Positions 4,141 through 35,976 of a stretch of 55,999 bases of DNA are shown in pieces. A program made the position numbers and the translations under genes. Positions within the stretch are counted from its first letter, which is position 1, and each line of letters starts with the position of its first letter. The notes beneath the pieces are model-generated. The model had not been told where the DNA came from. It saw only the letters and a program-made list of their open reading frames with translations, and made no database searches. The DNA is taken from assembly GCA_905233215.1 (NCBI GenBank), contig CAJODC010000029.1, positions 1 through 55,999 of the forward strand, written 5' to 3'. The DNA is from an uncultured Synergistales bacterium (GTDB lineage: Bacteria > Synergistota > Synergistia > Synergistales > Aminobacteriaceae).

Positions 4141-4149
4141 TGATATAAT
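4141..4149 (+). promoter_or_regulatory. Extended -10 promoter inside the IS605-like element
   Basis: TGATATAAT is a perfect extended -10 box (TG-N-TATAAT). It is oriented toward the right-end hairpin and would start an RNA near position 4156. No clear -35 box is seen. The same 9-mer precedes several other transcription units in this window. Confidence 0.5.
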
Positions 4150-22351: not shown

Positions 22352-23332
22352 CTACAATTCTGAATCAACGTCAATTTCACCGTCAATATTATCGCTGACA
22401 GTTTCGTTTTCTGATTCGCCTTCGTCTATAGGCATTCTGCTTTTGATCAGCGCGATTCTTTGAATGAAATCACTCGTCAATGGCTGTCGGAACTTCATCG
22501 CTTCTCCCGTAACAGGGTGAGCAAATTCCAGCTTCCATGAATGAAGATATACCCTTGCGAGGTTTCCTGTTTTCGCTCCGTAGAGGCCGTCGCCGACAAG
22601 AGGACAGCCTAACGCCGACATGTGTACACGGATCTGATGAGTTCTTCCAGTGAACAATTCACACTCAACGAGGGATATATCGTTCATGCTCCACAAAACT
22701 TTGTAGCCAGTCAACGATGGTTTACCGCCCTCGATGATTATCATGTGAAGGTAGTTGTCAGGGTCTCGGTCAATAGGTCCTGACAGTATGCCCTCTGATT
22801 TTTCGGGGCAGCCGTGTACGAGAGCTATGTAGTGTTTGTGTATCGTCCTGTTTTTGAACATGGATTGAAGTTTGAGTGTTACCTTCTCAGTTCTCGCAAC
22901 AATCATCAAGCCAGATGTGCCTATGTCCAGTCTGTGAACGATGCCCGGCCTCAGCCATTGCGATAACTTTCTCATCTCCGGGTAACGGTAGACTAAGCCG
23001 TTGACCAGAGTGTTACGCCAATGTCCCGGCGCAGGGTGTACGATGACTCCCGAAGGCTTGTTGATGACGAAAAGATATTCATCTTCGTAGAGAACATCGA
23101 AGTCAACAGGTTCAGCCCTGAGATATTCCATGTTGAGGGATTCTGGAAGTTCAACAGAATATTTACAGCCTGCCTTCACTGATGATGCTGGCTTCGCTCT
23201 CATTCCCTCATCTGTGCGGACATAACCGTTTTTGATGAGGTGCTGTACACGTGTGCGGGTCTTGTCAAGTTTCTCGGACAAAAATATATCCAGTCTCTCG
23301 TAATCTTTATCAGCAGCAACTTCAATAATCAC
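22352..23332 (-). CDS. rluD: RluA/RluD family 23S rRNA pseudouridine synthase
   Basis: A 326-aa enzyme with an N-terminal S4 RNA-binding domain (residues 1-60) and a pseudouridine synthase domain. It contains the catalytic HRLDIGTSGLMIVA (Asp near residue 136), the INKPSGVIVHPAPGH motif near residue 92 and the GRTHQIRVHM motif near residue 230. An acidic tail ends the protein. It most likely modifies helix 69 of 23S rRNA (RluD-like), though the exact site cannot be set from sequence. It overlaps the Cdc48 gene by 4 bp (ATGA). Confidence 0.9.
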   Translation of the reverse strand: MIIEVAADKDYERLDIFLSEKLDKTRTRVQHLIKNGYVRTDEGMRAKPASSVKAGCKYSVELPESLNMEYLRAEPVDFDVLYEDEYLFVINKPSGVIVHPAPGHWRNTLVNGLVYRYPEMRKLSQWLRPGIVHRLDIGTSGLMIVARTEKVTLKLQSMFKNRTIHKHYIALVHGCPEKSEGILSGPIDRDPDNYLHMIIIEGGKPSLTGYKVLWSMNDISLVECELFTGRTHQIRVHMSALGCPLVGDGLYGAKTGNLARVYLHSWKLEFAHPVTGEAMKFRQPLTSDFIQRIALIKSRMPIDEGESENETVSDNIDGEIDVDSEL

Positions 23333-25413
23333 AGCTTCAATCCCCTGACTAAATCATCACGTCTGATCAAAAAATTATCGACATCATTTTTCAACGCATT
23401 CATCGCCGCACGCCTGCACAAGATAGAAATATCTCCTCCCGAAAATCCTTCAGTCATCTCGGCAAGCTCCGAAATATTCACGTCATCGTCAAGAGGTTTT
23501 TTCCGTAACAAAATCCTGAAAATCTCGGCTCGTGTGTCAGAGTCAGGCAGTGGCAATTCAAGTTTAGTGTCAAAAATTCCTGACGACAAAAGAGACTCGT
23601 CAACAAGATCAATACGATTTGTCGCTGCAAGAACTGTAACGCCGTTAAGCTCCTCAATGCCTCTCATTTCGGCGAGAAACTGCGAGGTCAAGCGTGATTC
23701 TGTTGATGAGAACGCCGAATTTGATCCGCTTCGTTCAGGGAAGAGCGACTCTATTTCGTCAAAATAAATTATTGAGGGGGCTGCCTGTTTAGCGACTCTG
23801 AAAATATCCTTGAGGGCTCGTTCAGATTCTCCCAAGTAACGGGAAAGAACGTTCGCGCTCTGAACGGTGATGAAGTTCACACCGCTTTCATGTGCTAGGG
23901 CTTTGGCGAGGAGAGTTTTTCCTGTTCCTGATTTACCGTAGAGGAGAATGCCTCTTGAGGGCTGAATGTCGTAACGCTCGAAAATTTCCGAGTGCTTCAA
24001 CGGCCAAGTAACAGCTCTCATCAATTCATCTTTGACACTTTCGAGACCGCCGATGTCATTCCAAGTAACATCAGGAATTTCAACGAACACTTCACGAGTT
24101 GCTGACGGTTCAGTTTCAAGCAGAGCGTTCATGAAGTGCCTCATGCTGACCTCAAGACTTGCGACTCTCTCGTATGGTATCTCCTGATTCTGGAAGTTGA
24201 CGAACGGCAGAATGTCCCTCACGCATGACATGGCCGCTTCTTTGGCGAGTGCTTCAAGGTCAGCTCCGACAAAACCGTGAGAGAGGTCAGCGATTCTCTT
24301 GAGGTCTACATCATCAGAGAGAGGCATACCTCGTGTGTGAATGCGCAGAATTTCAAGCCTTCCGTTTCTGTCGGGAGTAGGGATTGAAATTTCACGGTCA
24401 AACCTTCCGGGCCTCCTCAAAGCAGGGTCGAGAGAGTTGGGAATGTTTGTAGCACCGATGACGATCAACTGGCCGCGTGATTTAAGGCCGTCCATCAGTG
24501 CAAGAAGCTGGGCAACGACTCGCCGTTCAACCTGTTTTTCTCCGCCCATGTCCTCACGTTTCGGGGCGATTGCGTCAATCTCATCAATGAAAATTATTGA
24601 GGGCGCACGGTCTTGAGCTTCCTCGAAAATTTTTCGGAGCCTCTCTTCGCTTTCACCGTAAAACTTCCCGATTATCTCAGGGCCTGAAATGTGAGTGAAC
24701 CATGCGTCAGTCTCATTCGCTACAGCACGGGCGATGACTGTTTTCCCTGTACCGGGAGGACCGTAGAGCAATACGCCTCTAGGGGGCTGAATGCCGAGTC
24801 TCTCAAAGACCTGCGGGAATCGCAAGGGAAGCTCTATCATTTCGCGGACTTTGCGTATCTGTGAGCTTAATCCGCCGATGTCCTCGTAAGTAACTTTGTG
24901 GGCGTGCTTTATCTCAAGTGGCTTGAGAATGTTGAGATAGGTTGACTTGTTGAGGATCACTATTCCGTCAGGTGTCGTTGCGGTAACGCTGAAGTCGCAG
25001 ACTCGAGTCCCGAAGAGGTTGACTCTGAGTCTGTCGCCTGTGTTTACGGCTTGGCCTTCGAGCATTGAGAGAATGTAGCGTTCGTCCTTCTCACGGTCTG
25101 AGAGTTTGACATCTCCGAGAGGCTGAAGGGTTGCGCTTCCGGCGAAATGGTGAGTGATTTGGGTTGACAGAGTGATATTCTCATCGAGTGATGTACCGGC
25201 GTTCTCGCGTATAAGTCCGTCAATCTGAATTATGTTACGGTCTGTCTCACTGTCGCCCGTTCTGATTCTCACTGGGGTAGTCTTCCGTCCTGTGATTGAG
25301 ACTAAATCGCCGTCCGTCAATCCGAGTTCGGCCATGTCCATCGGGTGGATACGGGCGAGTCCCTTCATTGCGTCTCCTGAGTAGGCTTCGTTTACTTTTA
25401 GTACTTTCTGCAT
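23329..25413 (-). CDS. Cdc48/VAT-type double AAA+ ATPase
   Basis: A 694-aa unfoldase of the archaeal VAT/Cdc48 type. Residues 1-175 form the double-psi-barrel N domain. D1 spans about 176-440, with Walker A GPPGTGKT (218-225), Walker B IIFIDEID (273-280) and arginine fingers in RRPGR (333-337). D2 spans about 445-690, with Walker A GKSGTGKT (493-500) and Walker B IIYFDEIE (548-555). In D2 the finger motif reads ESLLSSGIFD, with Ser at 610 and Ile at 613 where family members carry Arg. D2 hydrolysis between subunits may therefore be crippled. Bacterial Cdc48 genes are uncommon and are thought to derive from archaea. The next gene is an rRNA modification enzyme. Confidence 0.93.
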   Translation of the reverse strand: MQKVLKVNEAYSGDAMKGLARIHPMDMAELGLTDGDLVSITGRKTTPVRIRTGDSETDRNIIQIDGLIRENAGTSLDENITLSTQITHHFAGSATLQPLGDVKLSDREKDERYILSMLEGQAVNTGDRLRVNLFGTRVCDFSVTATTPDGIVILNKSTYLNILKPLEIKHAHKVTYEDIGGLSSQIRKVREMIELPLRFPQVFERLGIQPPRGVLLYGPPGTGKTVIARAVANETDAWFTHISGPEIIGKFYGESEERLRKIFEEAQDRAPSIIFIDEIDAIAPKREDMGGEKQVERRVVAQLLALMDGLKSRGQLIVIGATNIPNSLDPALRRPGRFDREISIPTPDRNGRLEILRIHTRGMPLSDDVDLKRIADLSHGFVGADLEALAKEAAMSCVRDILPFVNFQNQEIPYERVASLEVSMRHFMNALLETEPSATREVFVEIPDVTWNDIGGLESVKDELMRAVTWPLKHSEIFERYDIQPSRGILLYGKSGTGKTLLAKALAHESGVNFITVQSANVLSRYLGESERALKDIFRVAKQAAPSIIYFDEIESLFPERSGSNSAFSSTESRLTSQFLAEMRGIEELNGVTVLAATNRIDLVDESLLSSGIFDTKLELPLPDSDTRAEIFRILLRKKPLDDDVNISELAEMTEGFSGGDISILCRRAAMNALKNDVDNFLIRRDDLVRGLKL

Positions 25414-25438
25414 TGGGTTATCCCTTCAATATGCGGCA

Positions 25439-25447
25439 TGATATAAT
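25439..25447 (+). promoter_or_regulatory. Extended -10 promoter of the antisense RNA
   Basis: TGATATAAT (-10 TATAAT at 25442-25447) directs rightward transcription from about 25454, away from the Cdc48 gene and toward the 3' end of the small peptide gene on the other strand. Confidence 0.6.
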
Positions 25448-25453
25448 TTGAAG

Positions 25454-25556
25454 CGTCTGGGGAAGCATCAGACATTGTTGAAGATTTAGTTGCCGGTTAC
25501 AGGGTGCGACCTTAACCAGCAAGACTAAACCAGTTTAGGACGCTACTTCTTTTTTA
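25454..25556 (+). ncRNA. Candidate antisense RNA (type I antitoxin)
   Basis: A predicted RNA of about 100 nt from the TGATATAAT promoter to a T-rich stretch (CTTCTTTTTT, 25547-25555). It is strongly structured. A first hairpin pairs GTCTG (25455-25459) with CAGAC (25469-25473). A long second hairpin pairs TTTAGT and GGTTA (25484-25499) with TAACC and ACTAAA (25513-25529). An alternative hairpin CTAAA-CCAG-TTTAG (25525-25538) precedes the T-run. Its 3' part is complementary to the last codons and 3' untranslated region of the 28-aa peptide gene on the minus strand. No SRP-RNA, 6S or known riboswitch signature was found. Confidence 0.5.
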
Positions 25557-25629
25557 TTGAGTTAATGAGCAAGGCGATTGCATGAATCAGTTTTGCAACT
25601 GCCTCAACGAGGTTAATGAGGTCTCTCAT
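25543..25629 (-). CDS. 28-aa amphipathic peptide, candidate type I toxin
   Basis: A tiny ORF from ATG (25629) to TAG (25543-25545) with a GGGGTGAGAG ribosome binding site 2-12 bases upstream. The peptide begins MRDLINLVEAV and ends LLINSIKKK. Polar residues recur every three to four positions (D3, N6, E9, K13, H16) in an otherwise Leu/Ile/Ala/Val helix with a Lys-Lys-Lys end, which predicts a membrane-active helix like Fst-, TxpA- or PSM-type peptides. Its 3' end is overlapped by a convergent RNA, as in TxpA/RatA and BsrG/SR4 systems. It could instead be a leader or regulatory peptide. No homologue is claimed. Confidence 0.5.
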   Translation of the reverse strand: MRDLINLVEAVAKLIHAIALLINSIKKK

Positions 25630-25631
25630 AA

Positions 25632-25697
25632 CTCTCACCCCATTTCATGCGGGGGAAGCTTCTTTCAGCGACAACCCCCCGCAATGATTGCCGGGGG
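25632..25697 (-). other. Structured 5' leader of the 28-aa peptide mRNA
   Basis: Upstream of the ATG the minus-strand leader has a GC-rich hairpin, CCCCC-GCAA-TGA-TTGC-C-GGGGG on the plus strand (25676-25697). A second pairing joins GGGG of the ribosome binding site (25638-25641) with CCCC at 25651-25654. The latter would hide the translation start, a common feature of type I toxin mRNAs. A weak extended -10-like TGATACTGT lies upstream near 25713-25721 on the minus strand. Confidence 0.45.
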
Positions 25698-25766
25698 CTT
25701 CCCTAATCCATGAGATACAGTATCATGAACTGTCCAACATTCTATCACAGGCAAAAAATTTCAGCG

Positions 25767-26666
25767 TCAACGCTTCCTGAAAATTACCGCAAGAGGAATC
25801 AACATCGCAAGTGCCGTGAAACTCGTACAGCCTCCGCTCGAACTTGGCACAGCGTCTTCAGCAGGGTCAGGCCGTTCATGAACTGCCGAAATTATCGGCG
25901 CGTAATTCTTCCCTTCGTCAAGCCACGCCGATACATTCACGATGTGATCTTCTGGAACGGTAACAATCACGTTGCCTTCAGAGTCGTAGAACAGAACGGT
26001 ATCGTCTTCAGCATCTTCCATCTTGAGACCTCCTGTCGTGTTCCTCGTAAACGCATTCCAAACCAGCGTCCAGCCTACAGGGACATCAGGCGAAATCTTC
26101 ACTTCGGCAAAAGCATCAACGCTCTCATACGTGTAGAAGCCCGGATAATTCACGCTCATTTCAGGAATTATAGCGGCAATCACACCTCCGGCACTCGTGA
26201 TTGATGCAAGCTCGCCTATCGTCAGCGATGATACTCCTCGTTGAGTTCCCTGCTTCACCGTTACTTCAACAGGCTCAGTCTTCTTGTCTGAACTGTCCGA
26301 AACTATGCTGACCGTAATTTTCTTCGTGTCATGACCGGCTGCCTCAACAGTGAAAGTATATGATCTTGAGCCCCCATAAATGAAACTGCTGATGCCTCTT
26401 CCGAGTATGCCATTGGGAAGATTGAGACTGACGATTTTGTTCAGCAAAGCAGCTAGAACGTCAGAGGGCGAAAGAATTTCACCGAGTAACCGCTTCTTGT
26501 CCTCAGTGTCAGAATTTATAGCCATGAAAATATTATTGCCTGCTGATGACAGTGATTGTATGCCCGACTCTTTTTTGAGTCTTACTATAACATCTTCCGG
26601 GACTGTAACGCCAAGAGCCATTGAAGCAAACAGCAAAAGAAACAATGCCGAAAGTATTTTCCTCAT
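25767..26666 (-). CDS. Exported protein with Synergist-CTERM-like tail
   Basis: A 299-aa exported protein. A signal peptide spans residues 1-20 (MRKILSALFLLLFASMALG). The middle is beta-rich with several VTVPEDV/ITVSIVSD-like strands and no recognised domain. The C-terminus is a sorting tail: SSSGGC, then FTALAMLIPLAVI, then FRKR. This matches the layout of Synergist-CTERM proteins (Gly-Gly-Cys, hydrophobic helix, basic end), so it is probably exposed on the cell surface. The start has GGAGG and GGTGA upstream, and a TTATAAT box lies just before it, so it is likely transcribed separately from DUF2828. Confidence 0.78.
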   Translation of the reverse strand: MRKILSALFLLLFASMALGVTVPEDVIVRLKKESGIQSLSSAGNNIFMAINSDTEDKKRLLGEILSPSDVLAALLNKIVSLNLPNGILGRGISSFIYGGSRSYTFTVEAAGHDTKKITVSIVSDSSDKKTEPVEVTVKQGTQRGVSSLTIGELASITSAGGVIAAIIPEMSVNYPGFYTYESVDAFAEVKISPDVPVGWTLVWNAFTRNTTGGLKMEDAEDDTVLFYDSEGNVIVTVPEDHIVNVSAWLDEGKNYAPIISAVHERPDPAEDAVPSSSGGCTSFTALAMLIPLAVIFRKR

Positions 26667-34560: not shown

Positions 34561-35420
34561 TATCGGAACGCCTGACCCCAGCCGAATTTTTCACGCACTA
34601 CGTCAAGAAAGTTTCTTCCGGGAAGATTGAGAGTGCGAATCTTTTTCGAGCGAGATAACCTAACGTCTATTCTGTCTCCCGGCAGAACCTCGTAAGCTAA
34701 CTGTCCGTCCTGTGTCAGCATTATGTCTCTCGATGTCCCTCTGGGTGTGAGCGATATGCAGTCGTCTTCAGACGCTATGATGGGACGTGAGTAGAGAGTG
34801 TGAGCGCAGAGCGGAGCGAGTATCATTGCGTTCATCTGCGGCGGAACTACCGGGCCTCCTGCTGAAAGCGCGTAAGCTGTCGAACCTGTAGCCGATGCGA
34901 CTATCGCTCCGTCAGCAGGCATCTCGCAGAAAAATCTCTGGTTGAATAATATCTCGATGTGTAGAAGCCTTGCGATTGCGTTTGTGGTCAACACTATGTC
35001 ATTGAGGGCGTATATCTTGTGAAGAATTGAGTCATCATGACAGAGACTGCACTTCAGGACTCTTCGTTCGAGAACTTCAAACTTATCGCTCATGATATTT
35101 TCGAGATCGTGTTCAATTTCGTCCGGCCTGCTCAAAGCCAAGAAGCCTAAATGCCCCATGTTGATACCGTGAAGGATTATGTCAGTCCCCATGATGTATC
35201 TTGCTGCCCTGAGAAAAGTACCGTCACCGCCGATCACTATCGCAAGTTCGACAGTCTTGAGCCATTGTTCATCGTCAAGTCCTGCGGTAGTGAGTACGCT
35301 TGCTTCCTGTCGAGGCAAAAGAAATGAACAGCCGTTATCTTTTCCCCATTGAAGCAATTTTCCGGCCATGCTTACGGCTTCGGGCTTTCGCAAGTTTACT
35401 ATCATTCCAAGATTTTTCAC
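34560..35420 (-). CDS. nadK: NAD kinase
   Basis: A 286-aa NAD(+)/NADH kinase that makes NADP from NAD and ATP in the cytoplasm. The GGDGTFL motif (residues about 70-76) and the NE/D-type region LNDIVLTTNAIARL are present, as is the ATGSTAYALSAGGPVV motif near residue 176. The nadK-recN arrangement is a known conserved pair. TATAAT-like GGTATAATG lies just upstream near 35451-35459 on the minus strand. Confidence 0.95.
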   Translation of the reverse strand: MKNLGMIVNLRKPEAVSMAGKLLQWGKDNGCSFLLPRQEASVLTTAGLDDEQWLKTVELAIVIGGDGTFLRAARYIMGTDIILHGINMGHLGFLALSRPDEIEHDLENIMSDKFEVLERRVLKCSLCHDDSILHKIYALNDIVLTTNAIARLLHIEILFNQRFFCEMPADGAIVASATGSTAYALSAGGPVVPPQMNAMILAPLCAHTLYSRPIIASEDDCISLTPRGTSRDIMLTQDGQLAYEVLPGDRIDVRLSRSKKIRTLNLPGRNFLDVVREKFGWGQAFR

Positions 35421-35454
35421 GGTCTAGTCTCCTGTCATTGTGAACGAGTGAACA

Positions 35455-35976
35455 TTATACCTCAAACTCTTTGTACAACATGCTGGCCTGTATGCCTTTG
35501 TTGTTCTGATACTTTCCTGATTTGTAGTTCTCGTAAGGCTTTGTTATCGTGTGATAATAAATCTGAGCGATTTGGACACCGGCATAAATTCTCACGGGCT
35601 GAATGCAGAATAATTCAAGCGTCCAGTAGCCAGCGAATCCGACATCGCCGAATCCTGCCGTAACGTGTATGCAGATTCCGAGTCTGCCTATTGACGAACG
35701 GCCTTCTAACATCGGGATATAGCCTTCAGTTTTTGTGTACTCGCTTGTTCGTCCCAAGTATAATTTTCCCGGCATCATCACAAAGCCTTCGGGAGGTATC
35801 ATGATTTTTTCTGACGGGTTATCGTGCCTCATGTCGAGCGTCTCATTCTTGTAGACCAAAAGTTCATCATGAAGAGACAAGTTATAACTGTTCGGATTGA
35901 GTCGGGACTCGTCAAAAGGTTCTATGATTATTTCACTGCCTATGTGTTTTTTTATCTCAAGTCCTGAGAGTATCAT
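35455..35976 (-). CDS. dcd: dCTP deaminase
   Basis: A 173-aa Dcd-family enzyme of the dUTPase fold. It deaminates dCTP to dUTP, feeding dTMP synthesis. Visible motifs are LNPNSYNLSLHDELLVY near residue 26, LEGRSSIGRLGI with the catalytic Arg-Ser-Ser near residues 90-95, and HVTAGFGDVGFAGYWTLEL with the catalytic Glu near residue 120. The C-terminal GIQASMLYKEF tail is also typical. GGGAG lies about 11 bases before the ATG. Confidence 0.93.
   Translation of the reverse strand: MILSGLEIKKHIGSEIIIEPFDESRLNPNSYNLSLHDELLVYKNETLDMRHDNPSEKIMIPPEGFVMMPGKLYLGRTSEYTKTEGYIPMLEGRSSIGRLGICIHVTAGFGDVGFAGYWTLELFCIQPVRIYAGVQIAQIYYHTITKPYENYKSGKYQNNKGIQASMLYKEFEV

Follow-up and report, generated by a model that had tools for sequence, protein, structure and literature searches.

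A probable chromosomal type I toxin-antitoxin family of Synergistota with facing promoters and a covarying 5'-3' lock

Several described type I toxin-antitoxin systems resemble, in one part or another, the locus considered here. In TxpA/RatA and BsrG/SR4 of Bacillus, a convergent antisense RNA runs over the 3' end of the mRNA of a small hydrophobic peptide. In the par locus of pAD1 and the Fst/Ldr group, a single small unit with a structured toxin mRNA is flanked by a convergent pair of promoters, and in hok/Sok the antitoxin RNA Sok pairs with the 5' leader of hok. The aapA/IsoA systems of Helicobacter are multi-copy chromosomal units encoding a small toxin, the mRNA of which is overlapped by an antisense RNA and kept inert by a 5'-3' long-distance interaction (LDI) whose 3' strand traps the Shine-Dalgarno itself (PMC6733600). 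Trimming of the 3' end has been established as the activation step of aapA, and hok is cited for a 5'-3' fold-back that must be removed before translation (PMC6733600). Membrane toxins of type I have been described as peptides of <60 amino acids with a hydrophobic helix and cationic C-terminal residues, and a conserved proline with a PXXXGC-type motif has been described for Fst/Ldr (PMC8309996). Until one cyanobacterial locus was reported in 2025, Proteobacteria, Firmicutes and Tenericutes were stated to be the only phyla with known type I systems; MsoT1/MsoA1 and other predicted Microcystis loci are described as type I candidates from beyond the classical phyla (PMC12390103). No paper linking type I systems to Synergistetes or Synergistota came up in a literature search.

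The window, i.e., the whole stretch of DNA analysed, comprises 55,999 nucleotides of an uncultured Synergistales bacterium (assembly GCA_905233215.1, contig CAJODC010000029.1, positions 1-55,999, forward strand). A sequence-only reading had drawn attention to a gap of 353 bp without a long gene (25414-25766), lying between two long genes, and had proposed that it holds a type I toxin-antitoxin locus. The gap, a 28-aa ORF on the minus strand, its ribosome binding site and an opposing promoter motif on the plus strand are all present as claimed (Table 1). The observation is confirmed, and its interpretation as a type I layout is supported. The extent first given was too narrow, the real unit running from 25747 to 25439, and both the covarying 5'-3' LDI and the occurrence of the unit in many copies and several genera had been overlooked. 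A class-1 copy is a unit of ~310 bp consisting of a sense extended -10, a structured leader, the ORF, a 3' domain with a terminator-like hairpin and an opposing extended -10. The locus is quite probably a chromosomal type I toxin-antitoxin unit that represents a previously undescribed family.

Table 1. Features of the unit, their positions in the window and the evidence for each.
Feature	Position	Strand	Evidence
Sense (toxin mRNA) promoter, extended -10 TGATAGAAT, start expected near 25732	25739-25747	-	TGNTANAAT here in 27 of 28 leader-selected copies
5' upstream mRNA hairpin (TTCATGA/TCTCATGGA)	25708-25730 (ends approximate)	-	7 pairs, 4 two-sided; 93% of cells paired
LDI 5' strand GGGAAGC, pairing with 25460-25466	25697-25703	-	98.9% of cells paired; 5 of 7 pairs two-sided; 0 of 500 shuffles
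Leader helix D, 5' strand CGGCAATC, pairing with GGTTGTCG at 25669-25676	25687-25694	-	~90% of cells paired; one-sided changes only
Leader helix C, 5' strand GCGGGGGG, pairing with TCCCCCGC	25675-25682	-	93.5% of cells paired; two pairs two-sided
Leader helix C, 3' strand TCCCCCGC	25649-25656	-	
Shine-Dalgarno GGGGTGAG, predicted paired	25634-25641	-	Unpaired probability 0.12 in window copy
Putative toxin ORF, 28 aa, MRDLINLVEAVAKLIHAIALLINSIKKK	25543-25629	-	Conservation, dN/dS, amphipathic helix
3' domain hairpin TTGCTGGTTAAGG...CCTGTAACCGGCAA	25490-25522	-	RNAalifold consensus of 25 copies; pairs vary mostly on one side
Terminal hairpin GTCTG-loop-CAGAC, then T-rich tail; loop contains LDI 3' strand	25455-25473	-	Stem paired in 100% of cells; 4 of 5 pairs two-sided
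LDI 3' strand GCTTCCC, in terminal hairpin loop	25460-25466	-	Covariation
Putative antisense antitoxin RNA, 5' hairpin loop GGGGAAGC, 3' end at T6 (25550-25555) uncertain	25454-25555	+	Conserved promoter
Antisense (antitoxin) promoter, extended -10 TGATATAAT, start expected near 25454	25439-25447	+	ATTATANCA in 27 of 28 copies, 0.18 expected

With aapA/IsoA the unit shares a multi-copy chromosomal small-peptide gene, an mRNA predicted to be closed by a 5'-3' LDI and a putative overlapping antisense RNA. In contrast to aapA, the LDI joins 25697-25703 to the terminal loop and not to the Shine-Dalgarno at 25634-25641, and the antisense RNA would start at the mRNA 3' end; the peptide itself matched no known family in the Pfam/NCBIfam scan. 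The 5'-3' fold-back is a likeness to hok/Sok as well, from which the unit differs in that its antisense RNA would cover the 3' part and in that Hok is longer, with no Pfam match to the peptide. The antisense promoter appears placed for a 3' overlap of the toxin mRNA as in TxpA/RatA and BsrG/SR4. The unit would work like these two systems, to whose layout the first interpretation had pointed, but membership in their toxin families is not supported, neither Pfam-A nor NCBIfam matching the peptide to any known type I toxin family. To our knowledge, a covarying lock of the 5' terminus onto the terminator loop has not been described for TxpA/RatA or BsrG/SR4. The conserved proline and PXXXGC-type motif of Fst/Ldr (PMC8309996) are absent here, proline occurring neither in the window peptide nor in 26 aligned peptides, and no Pfam match to that group was obtained. 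The Microcystis loci belong to another phylum. An hmmscan of Pfam-A and NCBIfam with the window peptide at E up to 10 returned nothing (HMMER filters can lose weak matches), and Rfam, searched at gathering and at loose E-value thresholds with the window and 14 diverse loci, returned nothing credible. Because the features tested for aapA (an LDI on the Shine-Dalgarno), for the TxpA/BsrG toxin family and for Fst/Ldr were not found, the unit is filed as a new type I variant outside these families; its layout is best read as combining the 5'-3' lock of hok/aapA with the 3'-overlapping convergent antisense RNA of TxpA/RatA and BsrG/SR4.

The facing promoters recur in copies that were found independently of the peptide. 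A covariance model of the leader only (R1) was built so that copies were not selected on the peptide, and it matches in 28 of the 43 genomes of the genus. Among 28 R1 copies beside a gene for a CDC48/VCP-like AAA ATPase, which in the window lies directly downstream of the unit (23329-25413, minus), the sense -10 is present in 27, the antisense -10 likewise in 27 (0.18 expected from shuffles) and the ORF in 26, which bears out the convergent promoter proposed earlier. Of the two copies without ORF, one (L159, the same locus as L016) is frameshifted and the other (L158:1490) is a degenerate leader. At the start of nearly every copy stands TGNTANAAT, read on the sense strand, and at its end ATTATANCA, which is TGNTATAAT in reverse complement. 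The antisense -10 matches the consensus TATAAT in full, as against mostly TAGAAT or TAAAAT on the sense side; the antisense promoter is probably the stronger of the two, and the difference agrees with an excess of antitoxin. A generic sigma-70 scan of the window listed neither promoter, probably because neither has a good -35 box. In the window TGNTATAAT occurs 5 times against 0.8 expected, a count reached by 0 of 100 shuffles, and 12 of the 13 matches obtained with the variant TGNTA[GA]AAT are intergenic, though ~93% of the window is coding; 8 sit 23-128 nt ahead of a gene on the same strand. Since it is almost only intergenic and mostly just ahead of gene starts, the extended -10 looks like the promoter motif of this lineage. 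Another facing pair of extended -10 motifs, ~60 bp apart and intergenic, is found at 4141 (+) and 4203 (-).

The unit is widespread among relatives of the source organism. Of 61 related genomes, 25 gave a tblastn match to the peptide, and these 25 all belong to the window's genus. A profile of 23 members detected related peptides in 13 of 63 genera and 51 of 188 Synergistota genomes, one of the 51 belonging to another family of the order. More than 100 related copies occur in relatives, often several per genome or in tandem arrays; one contig (G018 contig 99, L233:446-2446) carries six class-2 units in tandem, each with its own facing promoters and peptide variant. The window's own genome contains a second unit (L095, G000 contig 23, ~35,320-35,620) of class 2, with the peptide MERIIKLVKALTELARAIAKIIRLFKMR and the 5'-3' words GGGGAGT/ACTCCCC. 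When read, three further short DNA matches in this genome (L002-L004) turned out to contain no unit, and they look unrelated. The peptide had no tblastn match in plasmid and phage collections, and neither of two DNA patterns was found in viral contigs. In most species of the genus the unit precedes the AAA gene, at times with one copy of the 34-aa class and one of the 28-aa class in tandem, and the named relatives at this syntenic locus are Synergistaceae MAGs from the ruminant gut. The upstream gene (25767-26666, minus) encodes a secreted-looking protein, and its C-terminus (GGC, a hydrophobic stretch, RKR) may be a Synergistota-type sorting signal. Decayed copies have also been observed. The ORF of L016/L159 is broken by one additional A within an A-run, and in L009/L154 the whole 3' domain is lost with the antisense -10 kept; the frameshifted ORF of L016 and the lost 3' domain of L009 are as expected of toxin decay. 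L009 and L017 were excluded from the class-1 alignment for length differences.

Multiple copies, tandem arrays and TG...CA ends that are imperfect inverted repeats of each other could also suggest a small mobile or repeat element of the MITE kind, in which the ends would be merely promoter-like and the ORF incidental. Such an element is extremely improbable here. The flanks share 3.4 nt versus 3.2 nt when swapped and so give no signal of a target-site duplication, the motif at the ends is the one that ordinarily serves this genome as a promoter, the site ahead of the same AAA gene is syntenic in most species of the genus, and selection acts on the ORF at the codon level. Class-1 codons are under purifying selection, with a median dN/dS of 0.19 and values <1 in 88 of 88 measurable pairs, and the non-consensus fraction at codon positions 1, 2 and 3 is 0.24, 0.11 and 0.46. 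Conservation of the ORF in relatives, to which the sequence-only reading had tied its proposal, was found in that the peptide is kept across the genus and the family at a dN/dS of ~0.19.

The peptides of the family are cationic amphipathic helices. The helix predicted earlier for the window copy has a hydrophobic moment of 0.61 (shuffle p = 0.018), and its maximum 19-residue Kyte-Doolittle value is 2.0, with 1.3-2.4 across the family; the peptide is more amphipathic than transmembrane, which counts against a membrane toxin. The 34-aa subclass has about seven extra residues within the helix. A third peptide class, at L108 and L134, comprises 34-35 aa (e.g., MREWLDGIIKLLQIIATSATVIELLLRLVRYWFTR) and has the same RNA architecture with a lock of the class-2 type; a few copies in class 3 and in some other genera are more divergent. 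The window peptide agrees with the published description of membrane type I toxins in being the small, hydrophobic helical product of a real gene with C-terminal cationic residues, and it is because of these family features that we infer toxicity (PMC8309996). The strong amphipathicity would also suit a small antisense-controlled peptide that is not a self-toxin, e.g., one that is secreted and PSM-like, one that resembles leaderless bacteriocins, or one that regulates a membrane protein, and the sole suggestive family matches, obtained with a class-2 peptide, were to PSM-delta (E 0.097 in Pfam and 0.006 in NCBIfam), far below the cut-off. This weak match was not read as homology of the class-2 peptide to PSM-delta. 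We regard a peptide other than a self-toxin as unlikely: the copies examined stand alone or in tandem, no accompanying export or immunity gene was seen when the flanks were read by eye, double safeguards on translation and a consensus opposing promoter suit a toxin better, and type I toxins typically spread in multiple copies within particular lineages.

The RNA of the putative toxin is closed by pairings that covary among copies. Compared with dinucleotide shuffles, the sense strand of the gap has the better fold (z = -2.9). Over 25 copies, the LDI and the terminal stem together have 99.3% of cells paired and 9 of 12 pairs two-sided, with 0 of 500 shuffles as good, and this signal collapses when the columns are slid by one. 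The LDI is formed by 11 distinct word pairs (e.g., GGATGAC/GTCATCC, GGAGAGC/GCTCTCC and GGAAGGT/ACCTTCC), and 0 of 20000 re-pairings were as good. It recurs with other words in class 2 and in other genera (GGAGAGGC/GCCTCTCC, GGACAGG/CCTGTCC and GGCAAGGT/ACCTTGCC), where a perfect helix of at least 6 is present in 82% of cases versus 33% for swapped pairs, a smaller contrast because relatives share similar words. The terminal stem is usually followed by 5-8 T within 12 nt, and the terminal hairpin is probably the intrinsic terminator of the mRNA. In the leader, two-sided changes such as GCGGGGG/CCCCCGC to GCAGGGG/CCCCTGC point to helix C, which probably crosses helix D as a pseudoknot; helix D itself is weakly suggested. 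The 3' strand of the 3' domain hairpin has an alternative partner in GGTTGTCG at 25669-25676; the alternative GGTTGTC/GGCAACC pairing, with changes mostly on one side, is weakly suggested as well. The pairing of the Shine-Dalgarno claimed earlier is predicted in 24 copies; the mean unpaired probability is 0.17 there, whereas 27 other genes of the window average 0.36 (p = 0.005).

An RNA so large, structured and strongly covarying, which most species of the genus have immediately ahead of the AAA gene, might itself be the functional product, e.g., a cis-regulator of that gene, with the peptide as a leader or secondary feature. This reading is very improbable, as the mRNA seems to terminate ahead of the AAA gene, copies exist at many other sites and in arrays, and conservation of the peptide extends over leader classes with little sequence in common. 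The toxin-antitoxin reading remains the preferred one, with a predicted second RNA on the opposite strand.

This antisense RNA is predicted from its conserved promoter. An independent structure had been ascribed to it in the earlier proposal, and by itself its fold is not significant (z = -1.2). The run of six T (25550-25555, plus) is present as described, but it comes from Lys codons, and as an antisense terminator it was rejected, a T-run of at least 5 occurring in only 11 of 25 copies. The predicted 5' loop GGGGAAGC complements the terminal loop of the mRNA, and its core is identical to the mRNA's own 5' word. We tentatively suggest that one 7-nt word may serve both as the 5'-3' lock of the mRNA and as the address of the antisense RNA, the 5' end of the mRNA mimicking the antitoxin loop. 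Dispersed copies in one genome differ in the word (GCTTCCC in the window, ACTCCCC in the second copy); tandem neighbours mostly share one. If the suggestion is true, the cis-lock, the target loop and the antitoxin loop must change together, and the result would be a self-specifying lock-and-key that separates the control of paralogous toxins.

The following mechanism is proposed for the type I unit; of its elements, the conserved peptide, both promoters and the 5'-3' pairing have been shown computationally. Transcription from TGATAGAAT on the minus strand would give an mRNA of ~280 nt coding for the 28-aa cationic amphipathic helix, a putative toxin acting on the cell's own membrane. The mRNA would be inactive at birth, the leader structure pairing the Shine-Dalgarno and the 5' end (GGGAAGC) being locked to the loop (GCUUCCC) of the terminator hairpin at the 3' end, in the manner of hok and aapA. 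From the opposite end, TGATATAAT would drive an antisense RNA complementary to the 3' domain and beginning at the complement of the terminal hairpin. The loop of its first hairpin, GGGGAAGC, may kiss the terminal loop of the mRNA, after which the duplex would grow through the 3' domain, blocking translation and/or opening the mRNA to double-strand cleavage. When the antitoxin is short, the 3' end of the mRNA may be trimmed, the 5' end freed and translation of the toxin started.

Overall, a large, multi-copy family supported by covariation would bring type I systems into one more phylum of uncultured gut bacteria, and it shows that structure and paired promoters, rather than similarity of the toxin, can reveal such systems. 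In the lock architecture of this RNA, the covariation itself points to the regulatory pairing, and the mutual specificity of paralogous antitoxins would thereby be directly testable.
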